The notes below the pieces were generated by a model. It was not told the origin of the DNA and did not search any database. It saw only the letters and a list, made by a program, of their open reading frames with translations. From the NCBI RefSeq assembly GCF_000215085.1, contig NC_015589.1, positions 744,001 through 808,000 of the forward strand: 64,000 nucleotides of DNA, in the 5' to 3' direction. Source of the stretch: Desulforamulus ruminis DSM 2154 (GTDB lineage: Bacteria > Bacillota > Desulfotomaculia > Desulfotomaculales > Desulfotomaculaceae). The translations under genes and the position numbers were made by a program. Below are positions 52,422 through 58,051 of the stretch, in pieces (the first letter of the stretch is position 1; each line of letters opens with the position of its first letter).

Positions 52422-52439
52422 TTGGCATAAATCTTGCTT
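52422..52439 (+). promoter_or_regulatory. Sigma-54 promoter of ald
   Basis: TTGGCAT then five bases then TTGCTT: the -24 GG and -12 GC are exactly 10 bp apart, matching TGGCAC-N5-TTGCW. It lies about 40 bp ahead of the ald start. Confidence 0.8.
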
Positions 52440-52478
52440 AAGTATAAATCCATACAGAAATCTGAGGAGGCGACTTTT

Positions 52479-53596
52479 ATGATAGTAGGCGTACCAAAGG
52501 AAATTAAAAACAATGAGAACCGGGTTGCCATTACCCCGGCTGGTGTTCATGCCATGGTGAATAGCGGTCATCAGGTTGTTATTGAAAATAATGCCGGTAT
52601 TGGCAGCGGCATTACCAACGAGGCGTATCTGGAAGCCGGCGCTACCATACTTGATACAGCCAAAGAGGTATATAGCCAGGCCGATATGATCATGAAAGTG
52701 AAGGAACCCCTGCCGGCTGAATATGATCTTTTTAAAGAAGGGCAATTGCTTTTTACCTATCTGCATCTGGCTCCGGAACCGGAATTAACCGCAGCTCTTT
52801 TGAAAAAAAGGTGACCGGTGTGGCTTATGAAACCATTCAGTTGGATAATCGTTCCCTGCCCCTTTTGACTCCCATGTCCGAAGTAGCAGGCCGTATGTCC
52901 ATTCAAATTGGCGCCCGCTACCTGGAAAAAACCTATGGCGGCTTGGGTGTGCTGCTGGCTGGGGTTCCCGGAGTTCCCGCAGCCAATGTGGTGATCGTCG
53001 GTGGCGGTATCGTGGGTACCAATGCAGCGAAAATGGCCATGGGCCTGGGAGCCAATGTGACCATCCTGGATGTCAATGTGGACCGTTTGCGTTACCTGGA
53101 TGATTTGTTTGGCGGACGCATTAACACCGTTATGTCTAACAGCTACAACATTGCCGAGGCTGTTAAAAAGGCCGATTTGCTGGTGGGAGCGGTGCTGATC
53201 CCCGGTGCCAAAGCGCCCCGTCTGGTAACAGAGGCGATGGTTAAGACCATGAAACCGGGGTCCGTAATTGTGGACGTGGCCATTGATCAGGGTGGGTCCA
53301 TTGAGACCATTGACCGGGTAACCACCCACAGCGAGCCCATTTATGAGAAATTTGGCGTAATTCATTATTCCGTAGCCAACATGCCCGGTGCTGTTGCCCG
53401 GACCTCTACCTTTGCCTTAACCAACGTCACTCTTCCCTATGCCCTGCAGTTGGCCAACAAAGGCTGGTTAAAGGCGGTTCAGGAGAACGGCGCTTTGGCC
53501 AAGGGTGTTAATGTGACCGGTGGCTATTGCACCTTCAAAGCCGTGGCCGACGCTCTGAATCTGGAATACACTCCCCTAGAAAGAATTATCGGTTAA
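52479..53596 (+). pseudogene. ald: Alanine dehydrogenase, frameshifted
   Basis: NAD-dependent alanine dehydrogenase (alanine to pyruvate and ammonium). Start ATG 52479 follows GAGGAGG. The first frame ([59 protein letters not shown]) hits TGA at 52812, and the second continues with [43 protein letters not shown] (NAD fold), [16 protein letters not shown] and [16 protein letters not shown] to 53596. The break falls in a run of seven A (52803-52809); eight A would restore a normal protein of about 372 aa. It may be a true frameshift, a base-calling error, or slippage. Confidence 0.9.
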
Positions 53597-53760: not shown

Positions 53761-54873
53761 ATGAACGAGCCTATCTGGGCGGAAGTCAACTTGGGAGCAA
53801 TTCGTCACAATATCCAAGAAGTAAGAAGACTGGTGGGTCCCCACAGAGAGATTATGGCGGTGCTCAAAGCGAACGGTTATGGACATGGCAGTGTTCCGGC
53901 GGCAAGGGCCTCTTTGGAGGCCGGTGCTTCAAGATTGGCGGTTGCCAGACTGGGTGAGGCCTTAGCGCTGCGGGAAGCGGGAATTGATGCGCCCATTCTG
54001 GTCTTTGGCTTCATTTTGCCGGAGGAATTGGAAAAGGCCATTGATAATAAAATATCCATAACGGTATATCGCAGGGATATGGCGGAGACCATTTCCGACG
54101 CAGCCCAGAAGTTGGGCCGGGAAGCGACCGTACATTTAAAGGTGGATACCGGTATGGGTCGACTGGGTTTTTTGCCCGGTAAGGAAGGAATTGAAGAGAT
54201 AAAGAGAGTAAATACTTTGAAGGGCCTTTTTTTGGAAGGGATCTATACTCACTTTGCCACGGCGGATGAAAAAGATAAGCAATATGCCCGCCGGCAATTG
54301 GATCAATTTTTATCCTTTGTTGAAGAACTGAAAACCCAAGGGATTTCCTTTGCCCTTCGTCATTGCGCCAACAGCGCCGCCATCATCGACCTTCCCGAAG
54401 CCCACTTGGATATGGTTCGCCCGGGGATTATAATTTACGGGATGTATCCCTCGGATGAGGTCGACCGCACCAAGGTAAGCTTACAGCCGGCCATGGTACT
54501 AAAGACCCGGGTTTCCCATCTGAAAAAGATGCAGGCCGGGGCTAAAATCAGCTATGGCTGTACTTATACCGTACCGGCGGAAACCATGATCGCCTCCCTG
54601 CCCCTTGGTTATGCCGATGGATATCCCCGGTTGCTTTCTTCCCGGGGACAGGTTCTGATCCGTGGTCAAAAGGCGCCGGTGGTGGGAAGGGTCTGCATGG
54701 ATCAGTGTATGGTGGATGTGGGGCACATACCGGATGTCCAGGTGGGGGATGAAGTGGTTGTTTTTGGTGATGAAAAATTGCCCGTTGAAGAAATGGCCGC
54801 TTGGTTGGGCACAATAAACTACGAAGTGGTATGCCTGGTAGGGAGCAGGGTTCCGCGGATCTTTATTGAGTAA
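53761..54873 (+). CDS. alr: Alanine racemase
   Basis: PLP enzyme that makes D-alanine for peptidoglycan. The 370-aa protein has the PLP Lys36 in MAVLKANGYGHG, catalytic Tyr265 in ISYGCTYTVPAET, the GLYGHG-like REAGIDAPIL region, the phosphate-binding PLGYADGYPR and VGRVCMDQCMVDV. AAAGGTG precedes ATG 53761. It follows ald directly (165 bp, with a terminator between), so alanine interconversion and racemisation sit together. An ANTAR gene starts 17 bp after its stop. Confidence 0.96.
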   Translation: MNEPIWAEVNLGAIRHNIQEVRRLVGPHREIMAVLKANGYGHGSVPAARASLEAGASRLAVARLGEALALREAGIDAPILVFGFILPEELEKAIDNKISITVYRRDMAETISDAAQKLGREATVHLKVDTGMGRLGFLPGKEGIEEIKRVNTLKGLFLEGIYTHFATADEKDKQYARRQLDQFLSFVEELKTQGISFALRHCANSAAIIDLPEAHLDMVRPGIIIYGMYPSDEVDRTKVSLQPAMVLKTRVSHLKKMQAGAKISYGCTYTVPAETMIASLPLGYADGYPRLLSSRGQVLIRGQKAPVVGRVCMDQCMVDVGHIPDVQVGDEVVVFGDEKLPVEEMAAWLGTINYEVVCLVGSRVPRIFIE

Positions 54874-54889: not shown

Positions 54890-55462
54890 GTGAAACGGGT
54901 TGTACTGGCCAGTGGTGATAAAAGTGAGCTGGGAAATATAAAACCAATGTTAATACGAAGCGGTTACAATGTAGTGGCCGAGGCAGCCAACGGCATGGCC
55001 GCACTAAAGGCGATTCGGACGACTTCGCCGGACGTGGTTTTATTGGATGACCGGCTGCCGGTGCTGGACGGCATGCAGGTGGCCAAAATTGTCACCGAAG
55101 AGAATCTGGCGCCTGCGGTTTTAATGGTGTCCAAGGGAAATAAGGCGCTGGTGGAACGAGCCAGGGATGTAACCGCAGCTTTTTTAATGCGTCCTTATCT
55201 GGAAGACCAGGTTTACGCTGCCGTGGAGGCAGCGGCTTCCTCCTATAAACGTTTGGCCCAATTGCAGCAGCAGCTAAATGAACTGCAAGAAAGCCTCAAC
55301 TCCAGGAAAATCGTGGAACGGGCCAAGGGCGTGCTGATGAAACAAAAGGGCTTTACCGAGGAACAGTCCTACAAAGCCATCCAGCAAACGGCTATGAAAA
55401 AGAGGACCACCATGAAGTCTGTGGCGGAAGCCATTTTAACCGCCTATGAAATGGGTATTTAA
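54890..55462 (+). CDS. ANTAR-domain antiterminator regulator
   Basis: 190-aa AmiR/NasT-type protein. The N-terminal receiver (about 1-118) is degenerate: it opens VVLASGDKSE rather than the usual double-Asp, keeps the phosphoacceptor-like D53 in VLLDDRLPV, and has Arg101 (MRPYLEDQ) where Lys is normal. A coiled-coil linker (LQQQLNELQESLNS) leads to the ANTAR RNA-binding domain (about 127-187; KIVERAKGVLMKQKGFTEEQSYKAIQQTAM). The frame reaches TTG 54866 in alr, but GTG 54890 with GGGAG upstream is the start. It should bind two-hairpin RNA elements; such an element lies just downstream, before glnB. Confidence 0.9.
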   Translation: MKRVVLASGDKSELGNIKPMLIRSGYNVVAEAANGMAALKAIRTTSPDVVLLDDRLPVLDGMQVAKIVTEENLAPAVLMVSKGNKALVERARDVTAAFLMRPYLEDQVYAAVEAAASSYKRLAQLQQQLNELQESLNSRKIVERAKGVLMKQKGFTEEQSYKAIQQTAMKKRTTMKSVAEAILTAYEMGI

Positions 55463-55494
55463 TGTATGTATACATTATTTCTAAAAAAAGACCA

Positions 55495-55523
55495 TTGTCA
55501 AAGATGAGGGAAACCCCTATAAT
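55495..55523 (+). promoter_or_regulatory. SigA promoter of the glnB leader
   Basis: TTGTCA (55495-55500), 17 bp, TATAAT (55518-55523). Transcription should begin near 55530, just before the P1 hairpin. Confidence 0.85.
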
Positions 55524-55537
55524 TAACAATAGCAGCA

Positions 55538-55620
55538 GGGGACAATGGCGTACCCCAAGCTTAACTGGCCGATGAAAGCCCAGTGAACGGAACATTCCGT
55601 ACATTGGGTTTTTATAATTT
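55538..55620 (+). promoter_or_regulatory. ANTAR-type attenuator leader of glnB
   Basis: P1 hairpin 55538-55556: GGGGAC and GTACCCC (one bulged A) close a six-base loop AATGGC with A at position 1 and G at 4, as in ANTAR targets. P2 hairpin 55564-55584: ACTGG pairs with CCAGT. Terminator 55579-55620: CCCAGTG and ACGGA pair with TCCGT and CATTGGG, followed by a T-rich run. P2 and the terminator share bases 55579-55584, so only one can form. Confidence 0.75.
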
Positions 55621-55665
55621 TCTGCCACTCCCTGCCTTGCGATCCATTTCGTAGGAGGGGTTATC

Positions 55666-56004
55666 TTGCAAAAAATTGAAGCCGTCATTCGATCCAGCAA
55701 GCTGGAGGAAGTAAAAGAAGCCTTAAATGAGTATGGTATCCAAGGAATGACCGTATCTCAGGTGATGGGCTGCGGCAAACAAAAGGGCCGGGTGAGTGTT
55801 TACCGGGGCCAGGAATATACCATCAATTTGTTGCCGAAAATTAAGCTTGAAATTGTCCTCCGGGATCACCAGGTGGATGAAGTGGTTGAGTTAATTGCCA
55901 AGGTTGCCCGCACCGGAGAAGTGGGAGACGGTAAAATCTTTATTTATCCGGTGGCCAATGCCATTCGGATCCGTACCGGTGAATCGGGCAACGAAGCACT
56001 ATAA
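55666..56004 (+). CDS. glnB: Nitrogen regulatory protein P-II
   Basis: PII signalling protein (112 aa) that reads 2-oxoglutarate and ATP/ADP and controls nitrogen proteins such as AmtB. The T-loop VYRGQEYTINLLPK keeps Tyr51, and GDGKIFIYPVANAIRIRTGE is the C-terminal signature. TTG 55666 follows GTAGGAGGGG. It is preceded by the ANTAR leader and followed by its own terminator, then amtB and a second PII gene, so the three genes are probably separate transcripts in one regulon. Confidence 0.95.
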   Translation: MQKIEAVIRSSKLEEVKEALNEYGIQGMTVSQVMGCGKQKGRVSVYRGQEYTINLLPKIKLEIVLRDHQVDEVVELIAKVARTGEVGDGKIFIYPVANAIRIRTGESGNEAL

Positions 56005-56037
56005 AAGCAAGGTTAAATGAATAATTCTTGGGCAAAG

Positions 56038-56086
56038 ATGCCCTCTGGAGTAAGGTTAGTCCGCCTTTCCCAGAGGGCATTTTTTG
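56038..56086 (+). terminator. Terminator between glnB and amtB
   Basis: ATGCCCTCTGG pairs with CCAGAGGGCAT (11-bp stem, 21-base loop), followed by five T. Confidence 0.9.
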
Positions 56087-56147
56087 TTCCCATCATGAAC
56101 AATCTAAATAAAATACCGGTTAAACACAAAGTAGTGTTATTAGCGAT

Positions 56148-56240
56148 GGCGCTTAATCCAGGGAAAAAATCTTCCCTTGGATTGAACGCCTTCGTTATTA
56201 ATGTGAAGTCCTTTTAGACAAAAGGGTACCCGCTAAAAGG
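56148..56240 (+). promoter_or_regulatory. Two hairpins in the amtB leader
   Basis: A long broken stem (GGCG and TTAATCCA and GGGAA against TTCCC, TGGATT and CGCC; 56148-56190) and an 8-bp stem CCTTTTAG with CTAAAAGG (56210-56240). Neither is followed by a T run. They precede the AGGAGGG site of amtB (56270-56276). Confidence 0.5.
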
Positions 56241-56282
56241 CCTTCTGCAATTATAAAAATCCATATTTAGGAGGGTTTATTT

Positions 56283-57677
56283 ATGAGAAGTCGACTCAAA
56301 ACATTCATGTTGGCAATGCTGGCATTGCTGCTGCTGCCCGGCATAGCCTGGGCCGCCGAAGCACCTGCCATTGACACTGGGGATACGGCCTTCATTCTTA
56401 TCTGTGCAGCCTTAGTTATGATTATGACTCCCGGTCTGGCCTTATTTTACGGTGGCATGGTGCGCAAGAAAAATGTTCTTAGCACCATTATGTTGAGCTT
56501 TATTGTTATTTCTGTAGTAAGTATTGTCTGGGTATTGTTTGGCTACTCCTTTGCCTTTGGTACCGCTGGAAGCGAAGCCCTTAACAGTTGGATCGGCGGC
56601 ACCTCCTTTTTGGGACTTAACGGCGTAGGGCCGGAAGCGGCTCTTGGGGTTATGACCATTCCACACTTTCTTTTTGTAGCTTTTCAGTTGATGTTTGCAA
56701 TTATTACCGTTGCCATTATCAGCGGTTCTATTGCTGAAAGAATGAATTTTCCCGCCTTTATTGCTTTCATTACTTTATGGGTTGCCATTATTTACGCTCC
56801 TTTGGCTCACTGGGTTTGGGGCGGCGGCTGGTTGTTCCAACTGGGAGCTCTGGACTTTGCCGGTGGTACCGTTGTACACATCAGTTCCGGGGTGTCCGGC
56901 TTAGTGGCAGCCCTGGTCATCGGCAGAAGGAAAGGTTACGGCAGTGAACCGCTGGTTCCTCATAATCTGCCCATGACGGTTCTGGGCGCTGCGCTCCTTT
57001 GGTTTGGCTGGTTTGGATTTAACGCGGGCAGTGCCTTGGCCGCCAACGGTTTGGCCGCCAGTGCTTTTCTGGTAACCCACATTTGTGCCGCCGTAGGGGG
57101 TCTCTCTTGGGTAGCGGCAGAATGGATGCATCGCGGCAAACCCACGGTACTAGGTTGTGTTTCCGGTGCGGTAGCCGGCCTGGTGGCCATCACTCCCGCT
57201 GCCGGCTTTGTAACTCCTATGGCCGCTATTCTCCTGGGTCTGGTGGTTGGTCCCCTGTGCTACTTTGCAGTTGCTGTGGTCAAAGCCAAATTTGGTTATG
57301 ACGATTCTTTAGATGCCTTCGGTGTTCACGGCGTTGGTGGTACCTGGGGTGCTATCGCCACCGGATTATTCTGCACCACCACTGTCAATGAAGCGGGTCA
57401 GAATGGCTTGTTTTACGGTAATGCAGCCCAAATGGTTCCTCAAATCATCGGGGTGGTTGCGACGGTTGCCTTTGCCGCCATCGGCACCTTCGTTATCCTG
57501 AAAGTGGTGAGCCTGTTCTGCAGCCTGAGAGTATCCGCCGATGATGAAGTAATTGGTTTGGATGCTACGGTCCATGGTGAAAACGGCTACGTTCTGGGCG
57601 ATGCCCTTGGCGGTTCGTTAATTAGTTCTGCGAAAGAACCCGTATCCGGCATTAGCGGGGTGCCTAAATCCGTATAG
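56283..57677 (+). CDS. amtB: Ammonium transporter
   Basis: AmtB/Mep/Rh channel of 464 aa, carrying ammonium across the membrane. A signal-peptide-like start leads to TM segments with the family features PGLALFYGGMVRKKNVLS, FGYSFAFG, ERMNFPAFI, the DFAGGTVVHISSGVSGLVAAL block with the pore-region His, NLPMTVLGAALLWFGWFGFNAGSA, and the FGVHGVGGTWGAIATGLF block with the second conserved His. The C-terminal tail ends in a Pro/Ser-rich stretch. AGGAGGG precedes ATG 56283. PII from the flanking glnB-type genes is its known regulator. Confidence 0.96.
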   Translation: MRSRLKTFMLAMLALLLLPGIAWAAEAPAIDTGDTAFILICAALVMIMTPGLALFYGGMVRKKNVLSTIMLSFIVISVVSIVWVLFGYSFAFGTAGSEALNSWIGGTSFLGLNGVGPEAALGVMTIPHFLFVAFQLMFAIITVAIISGSIAERMNFPAFIAFITLWVAIIYAPLAHWVWGGGWLFQLGALDFAGGTVVHISSGVSGLVAALVIGRRKGYGSEPLVPHNLPMTVLGAALLWFGWFGFNAGSALAANGLAASAFLVTHICAAVGGLSWVAAEWMHRGKPTVLGCVSGAVAGLVAITPAAGFVTPMAAILLGLVVGPLCYFAVAVVKAKFGYDDSLDAFGVHGVGGTWGAIATGLFCTTTVNEAGQNGLFYGNAAQMVPQIIGVVATVAFAAIGTFVILKVVSLFCSLRVSADDEVIGLDATVHGENGYVLGDALGGSLISSAKEPVSGISGVPKSV

Positions 57678-57712: not shown

Positions 57713-58051
57713 ATGACGAAAATTGAAGCAATCGTCCGCCCCGGTAAACTGGAAGATGTAAAGGATGCGCTCAATAACGCCGGCATTCATGGTATGACGG
57801 TTTCCCAGGTAATTGGTTGCGGTCATCAAAAGGGCCGCAAAGAAGTATACAGGGGCACAGAATACAGCATTAACCTGCTGCCCAAAATTAAGGTTGAGGT
57901 CATTGTGCAGGACAGCAAAGTGGATGGATGTGTAAAGGTTATTTGTGACGCGGCCCGTAGCGGCGAAATCGGTGACGGAAAAATATTTATCTATCCGGTG
58001 ACCAACGCCATTCGTATTCGCACCGGCGATCAAGGTGATTTAGCCATCTAA
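57713..58051 (+). CDS. glnK: Second P-II protein (GlnK-like)
   Basis: PII protein, 112 aa, very like the glnB product upstream. It has the T-loop VYRGTEYSINLLPK with Tyr51, GMTVSQVIGCGHQKG and GDGKIFIYPVTNAIRIRTGD. AAGGAGG precedes ATG 57713. It lies 35 bp after amtB, the classical amtB-glnK order in which the PII trimer plugs the transporter when ammonium is high. The pair of PII genes around amtB allows different control of each. Confidence 0.95.
   Translation: MTKIEAIVRPGKLEDVKDALNNAGIHGMTVSQVIGCGHQKGRKEVYRGTEYSINLLPKIKVEVIVQDSKVDGCVKVICDAARSGEIGDGKIFIYPVTNAIRIRTGDQGDLAI

Follow-up and report, generated by a model that had tools for sequence, protein, structure and literature searches.

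The leader between the ANTAR regulator gene and glnB in Desulforamulus ruminis is most probably (probability about 0.85) a transcription attenuator under ANTAR control and the first in a series of three within a glnB-amtB-glnB operon. This reading had been proposed in the first-pass annotation and was strengthened by the conserved dual hexaloop hairpins, the overlapping terminator, the ANTAR gene upstream and the published P-II and amt targets of this kind of RNA. We infer that a protein binds the leader, that transcription then reads through and that nitrogen limitation activates this circuit.

The window analyzed here is a stretch of 64,000 nt (744001-808000) from a genome of 3.97 Mb in one contig, and the closest relatives of the host are other Desulforamulus species, namely D. 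putei, D. aeronauticus and D. aquiferis. Within the window, the gene order is alr, ANTAR gene, glnB, amtB, glnB. The ANTAR gene that had been placed directly upstream of the leader, and the P-II and ammonium transporter genes that had been placed downstream, all show clear Pfam matches (Table 1). For the ANTAR1 reading frame, a start at 54866 is possible and the GTG at 54890 is likelier. Further upstream, alanine dehydrogenase (52434-53596) appears as two overlapping reading frames, possibly due to a frameshift. The SigA-type promoter assumed ahead of the leader is near consensus, with 11 of 12 matching positions. A near-consensus promoter on the minus strand (TTGACA-16-AATAAT, 55474-55501) is directed back into the ANTAR gene, and the -35 hexamers of this promoter and of the glnB promoter overlap.

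Table 1 Features of the ANTAR1-glnB-amtB locus in the window, followed by attenuator elements elsewhere in the genome
Feature	Position	Strand	Remarks
ANTAR regulator ANTAR1	54890..55462	+	receiver-like domain and ANTAR domain; PF03861 (E 4e-20), PF00072
GTATAC palindrome	55468..55473	.	-10 hexamer 47 bp downstream of its centre; candidate binding site of an activator
SigA-type promoter	55495..55523	+	TTGTCA (55495-55500), 17-bp spacer, TATAAT (55518-55523)
Attenuator 1 P1 hairpin	55538..55556	+	GGGGAC[AATGGC]GU(A)CCCC; loop 55544-55549, A1 and G4
Attenuator 1 P2 antiterminator hairpin	55565..55583	+	CUGGC C[GAUGAA]A GCCCAG; loop 55571-55576
Attenuator 1 intrinsic terminator	55578..55613	+	GCCCAGUG..CAUUGGGUUUUU; 5' arm = 3' arm of P2
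Hairpin pairing the glnB Shine-Dalgarno	55628..55659	+	CUCCCUGC..GUAGGAGGG; kept in 3 genomes with glnB here (G000, G002, G007)
glnB1, P-II protein	55666..56004	+	PF00543 (E 1.6e-31)
Attenuator 2 ANTAR-like single-hexaloop hairpin	56030..56043	+	GGGC[AAAGAU]GCCC; conserved in G000, G002, G006, G007, G009
Attenuator 2 strong terminator	56035..56085	+	5' arm = loop and 3' arm of the 56030..56043 hairpin
Attenuator 3 P1	56123..56138	+	ACAC[AAAGTA]GUGU
Attenuator 3 long hairpin	56140..56201	+	overlaps P2; U-tract weak in this genome
Attenuator 3 P2	56142..56153	+	AGC[GATGGC]GCU; 10.3 bits, alone below significance
Conserved amtB-leader hairpin	56205..56245	+	palindromic loop GGGUACCC; just before amtB ribosome-binding site
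amtB ammonium transporter	56283..57677	+	PF00909 (E 2e-129)
Second P-II gene	57713..58051	+	PF00543 (E 1.4e-30)
Element before ANTAR3-glnA pair	about 451520		single hexaloop
Element before iron alcohol dehydrogenase gene	598221
Element before ANTAR2	850414
Element before glnA	about 851125		one hexaloop here; two in relatives
Element before second glnA	852815
Two elements in eut-like locus (L108)	G000:C1:2436000-2449000		locus with EutV-like protein, kinase, permease, eutB
Element before chemotaxis-transducer-like gene	2644327	minus
Two elements in a row before nifH	3510538	minus

Published ANTAR targets combine two hairpins, each with a stem of at least 3 bp and a hexaloop carrying A1 and G4, and a linker of about 5-12 nt between them, with an intrinsic terminator overlapping P2. 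In attenuator 1, P1 with the loop AATGGC has all of these hairpin features, the linker is 8 nt long (55556 to 55565) and lies within the range of 5-12 nt reported for eut leaders (PMC3369931), and the terminator shares the 3' arm of P2, as had been predicted. P2 deviates: the GATGAA loop has G at position 1 and keeps G4, so that A1 is lost, and the loop is closed by a C-A mismatch, both of which the first-pass annotation had already described as less typical. Since P2 is off-consensus, attenuator 1 was filed as an atypical member of the ANTAR targets, an assignment that homology rather than strict consensus supports. Folding of the leader revealed the alternative structures that had been expected, and the folding energy of 55495-55665 is 4.3 sd below dinucleotide shuffles. 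In stepwise folding of the growing transcript, the first structures to appear are P1 and P2, at -15 to -20 kcal/mol; the terminator displaces P2 (-32 to -36) when its transcription is complete. Downstream of the terminator, the hairpin pairing the glnB Shine-Dalgarno is kept in three genomes, and therefore a translational layer may follow attenuator 1.

According to the proposed mechanism, a polymerase starting from the SigA-type promoter would by default form the terminator and halt. An active ANTAR protein would capture P1 and then P2 as each emerges; with P2 held by the protein, the 5' arm of the terminator would be withheld and transcription would continue into glnB. To reach amtB, the polymerase would have to pass attenuators 2 and 3 likewise, so that expression of amtB would depend steeply on the antiterminator.

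Each of the ten genomes examined from the Desulforamulus family has a homologous leader in front of either glnB or amtB. Of the nine other genomes, five (G002, G004, G006, G007, G009) carry the leader 3' of their ANTAR gene, and the remaining four (G001, G003, G005, G008) have it before amtB at a site apart from that gene. Compensatory changes occur in both the P1 and P2 stems, and the P1 closing pairs A-U and C-G are almost invariant. P2 was placed wrongly in a MAFFT alignment of long-linker (A) together with short-linker (B) elements, and therefore the models were based on A-type leaders and on fitted alignments. In 26 sequences from other genomes, whose alignment was fitted to the model and thus leans towards the structure, 90% of cells pair, 37 cells are double-sided compared to 13.5 in shuffles, double-sided changes affect 7 of 10 pairs, and the covariation is 0.378 compared to 0.159 for shuffled and at most 0.179 for slid controls. 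The same trend was seen in the MAFFT alignment A3. The covariation and alternative folding in homologues on which the initial proposal had been made to depend are thus present. A covariance-model search, also suggested at that stage, detected attenuator 1 with a score of 23.9 bits (E about 0.0004 over 114 kb and 0.015 over the genome) with the model R2, which was built solely from sequences of other genomes and is not the published ANTAR RNA model. Scores of the model R1 for the window are circular because it included sequences of the studied genome. A search of Rfam with E-values up to 10 returned chance matches only and no family for the leader.

The atypical P2 is a feature of this genome, whereas the orthologous P2 loops are canonical (AATGAG, AACGAG, AACGAA, AAGGAA, AACGGA or AATGAA) with a C-G closing pair. 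In EutV targets, a change of A1 in P2 or broken P2 pairing reduced induction (PMC3369931), and therefore attenuator 1, without A1 and with the C-A mismatch, may respond poorly here. An element before an alcohol dehydrogenase gene carries the same atypical P2 and first terminator arm, with 29 identical bases. This copy speaks against a random decay of P2, although recent copying alone may explain the match.

Attenuators 2 and 3, the atypical receiver domain of ANTAR1 and the shared upstream palindrome go beyond the first-pass annotation. Seven other genomes of the family carry relatives of attenuator 3 in front of amtB, mostly with better U-tracts, and in other families of the order amtB follows two or three such elements in series, according to a reading by eye. 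In total, about 13 elements of the ANTAR attenuator kind were found in the genome, a lower bound, three of them in the window. In relatives, the same element type also precedes gltB. Alongside the nitrogen ANTAR regulon, the genome contains the eut-like locus, which has ANTAR-like attenuators of its own, and cross-talk between the two is possible.

Some of these leaders, such as attenuator 2, show a single hexaloop. In the ANTAR3-glnA leaders of nine genomes, a hairpin GGGGC[AAAGRC]GUCCC lies 21-25 nt from the -10 hexamer, and no canonical P1 fits between the two. When 123 kb, mostly stretches picked for ANTAR genes or matches, were scanned for hairpins with a single hexaloop that overlap a terminator, nine were obtained, compared to 0.8 in shuffles. 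One hexaloop is the minimal binding site and both are required for antitermination (Walshe et al. 2022, PMC8934654). Single-hexaloop leaders therefore provide a test of the two-hexaloop requirement.

Which ANTAR protein acts on attenuator 1 is a question within the attenuator reading. Regulation by ANTAR2 or ANTAR3, which lie beside glnA genes, instead of the adjacent ANTAR1 is a plausible sub-case, to which we give less than even odds. The genome encodes three nitrogen-linked ANTAR proteins and one EutV-like protein, the latter being a further possible binder, and in four genomes amtB and its attenuators are located away from the ANTAR1 locus, so that adjacency to ANTAR1 is not essential. Against this sub-case, ANTAR1 is syntenic with glnB or amtB in six genomes and its RNA-contact residues are conserved. 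A plain intrinsic terminator that acts constitutively behind the ANTAR gene, next to small hairpins of no significance, would fit the frequent occurrence of terminators at gene ends and the degenerate P2 in this genome. Nevertheless, this explanation is very unlikely: P1 lies outside the terminator yet is conserved with compensatory changes, unrelated nitrogen genes at other loci of the genome also have similar leaders, and, since the promoter precedes the terminator, the leader's own transcript is terminated and not that of the ANTAR gene alone. A riboswitch-like or translational element sensing a small molecule without a protein is hardly credible, because the Shine-Dalgarno-pairing hairpin 3' of the terminator in three genomes is outweighed by the lack of an Rfam match, by P1 and P2 being too small to form a binding pocket, and by conserved positions that are those of ANTAR targets.

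For the ANTAR-dependent attenuator, the properties of the protein are informative. ANTAR1 aligns along its length with 6wsh, presumably EutV judging from the fit of the residue numbering. At the EutV RNA-contact residues K143, K147, Y164 and M172 (PMC8934654), the alignment places K, R, Y and M in ANTAR1, so that the genome encodes an ANTAR protein with its RNA-contact residues kept. In the receiver domain, the acid pair D-D is replaced by S-G and the conserved K by R, while the phospho-Asp is kept, and these substitutions are common to the orthologues read. ANTAR1 thus falls outside the EutV-type receivers activated by phosphorylation, which are defined by the acid pair, the phospho-Asp and the Lys. 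The phospho-Asp position is occupied by Gln in ANTAR2 and Glu in ANTAR3. ANTAR4, the EutV-like protein of the eut-like locus, has an intact receiver and adjoins a kinase gene. Since the receivers of the three nitrogen-linked ANTAR proteins are degenerate, the signal is probably transmitted through a partner protein and not by phosphorylation. A partner-gated control like that of AmiR (PMC3369931, PMC7496416) therefore appears likelier than phosphorylation, and P-II or glutamine synthetase would be natural candidates for the putative partner.

Two palindromic features flank the attenuators. Across the genus, most ANTAR-controlled promoters have the centre of GTATAC at a distance of exactly 47 bp on the upstream side of the -10 hexamer, and all three occurrences of GTATAC-N44-TATAWT in this genome precede ANTAR attenuators, compared to one occurrence of the reversed-pattern control. 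This suggests that the palindrome may be the site of a putative regulon-wide activator. Nothing useful was found in the literature on TGTATACA in nitrogen control. In the amtB leader, the loop is GGGUACCC in ten Desulforamulus-family genomes and GGCGCC in several other families, and as in kissing-loop dimers it keeps its palindrome while the centre shifts from UA to CG. A palindromic-loop hairpin occurs in 20 of 31 amtB leaders compared to 1.3 expected, with three of the 20 located farther upstream; the alignment of this hairpin is inconsistent. The possibility that the GGGUACCC loop pairs with the P1 arm GUACCC was rejected because this arm is missing in three of ten genomes.

Taken together, these features would allow a tentative model of three joined layers, consisting of an activator at GTATAC, partner-gated pseudo-receiver ANTAR proteins and serial attenuators including single-hexaloop ones, which we consider possible rather than probable. 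If it is true, the single-hexaloop attenuators (the ANTAR3-glnA leader of nine genomes and attenuator 2) would extend the two-hexaloop antitermination model. The single-hexaloop leaders, the GTATAC palindrome and the palindromic-loop hairpin of the amtB leader are possibly new. Attenuator 1 itself belongs to an already known kind, since RNAs of this kind were described by Ramesh et al. (2012), and its site possibly already stands in the supplementary tables of that study. The results confirm that nitrogen control in sulfate-reducing Desulforamulus has ANTAR antitermination as one of its main layers, and they provide a compact operon with three serial attenuators. They also raise two testable questions, namely whether antitermination can work with one hexaloop and how the nitrogen signal reaches an ANTAR protein that is not phosphorylated.

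Among the known systems, AmiR-AmiC of Pseudomonas aeruginosa likewise has an ANTAR protein with a pseudo-receiver, for which gating by a partner is expected. However, no AmiC-like gene was seen adjoining ANTAR1, and AmiR-AmiC controls amidase whereas the context of ANTAR1 consists of nitrogen genes. With the EutV/eutP leader of Enterococcus faecalis (PMC3369931, PMC8934654), the locus shares serial attenuators within one operon, the RNA-contact residues of the protein, and the P1 closing pairs A-U and C-G, which EutV requires in sequence (PMC3369931). The systems differ in that EutV is phosphorylated by EutW for activation, whereas in ANTAR1 neither the acid pair nor the conserved lysine is present, and no gene for a kinase was seen adjoining that of ANTAR1. 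Compared to the targets of Ramesh et al. (2012), which include Desulfotomaculum acetoxidans and D. reducens, the P2 loop of attenuator 1 has G1 and a C-A closing mismatch, and attenuator 2 and the ANTAR3-glnA leaders show one hexaloop. Common to both are the two-hexaloop hairpins with A1 and G4, the overlap of P2 and terminator, the nitrogen genes downstream, and several elements per genome and per transcription unit. Such RNAs precede P-II, amt, nif, gln and glt genes, and D. acetoxidans has 13 of them in six transcription units (Ramesh et al. 2012, PMC3369931).
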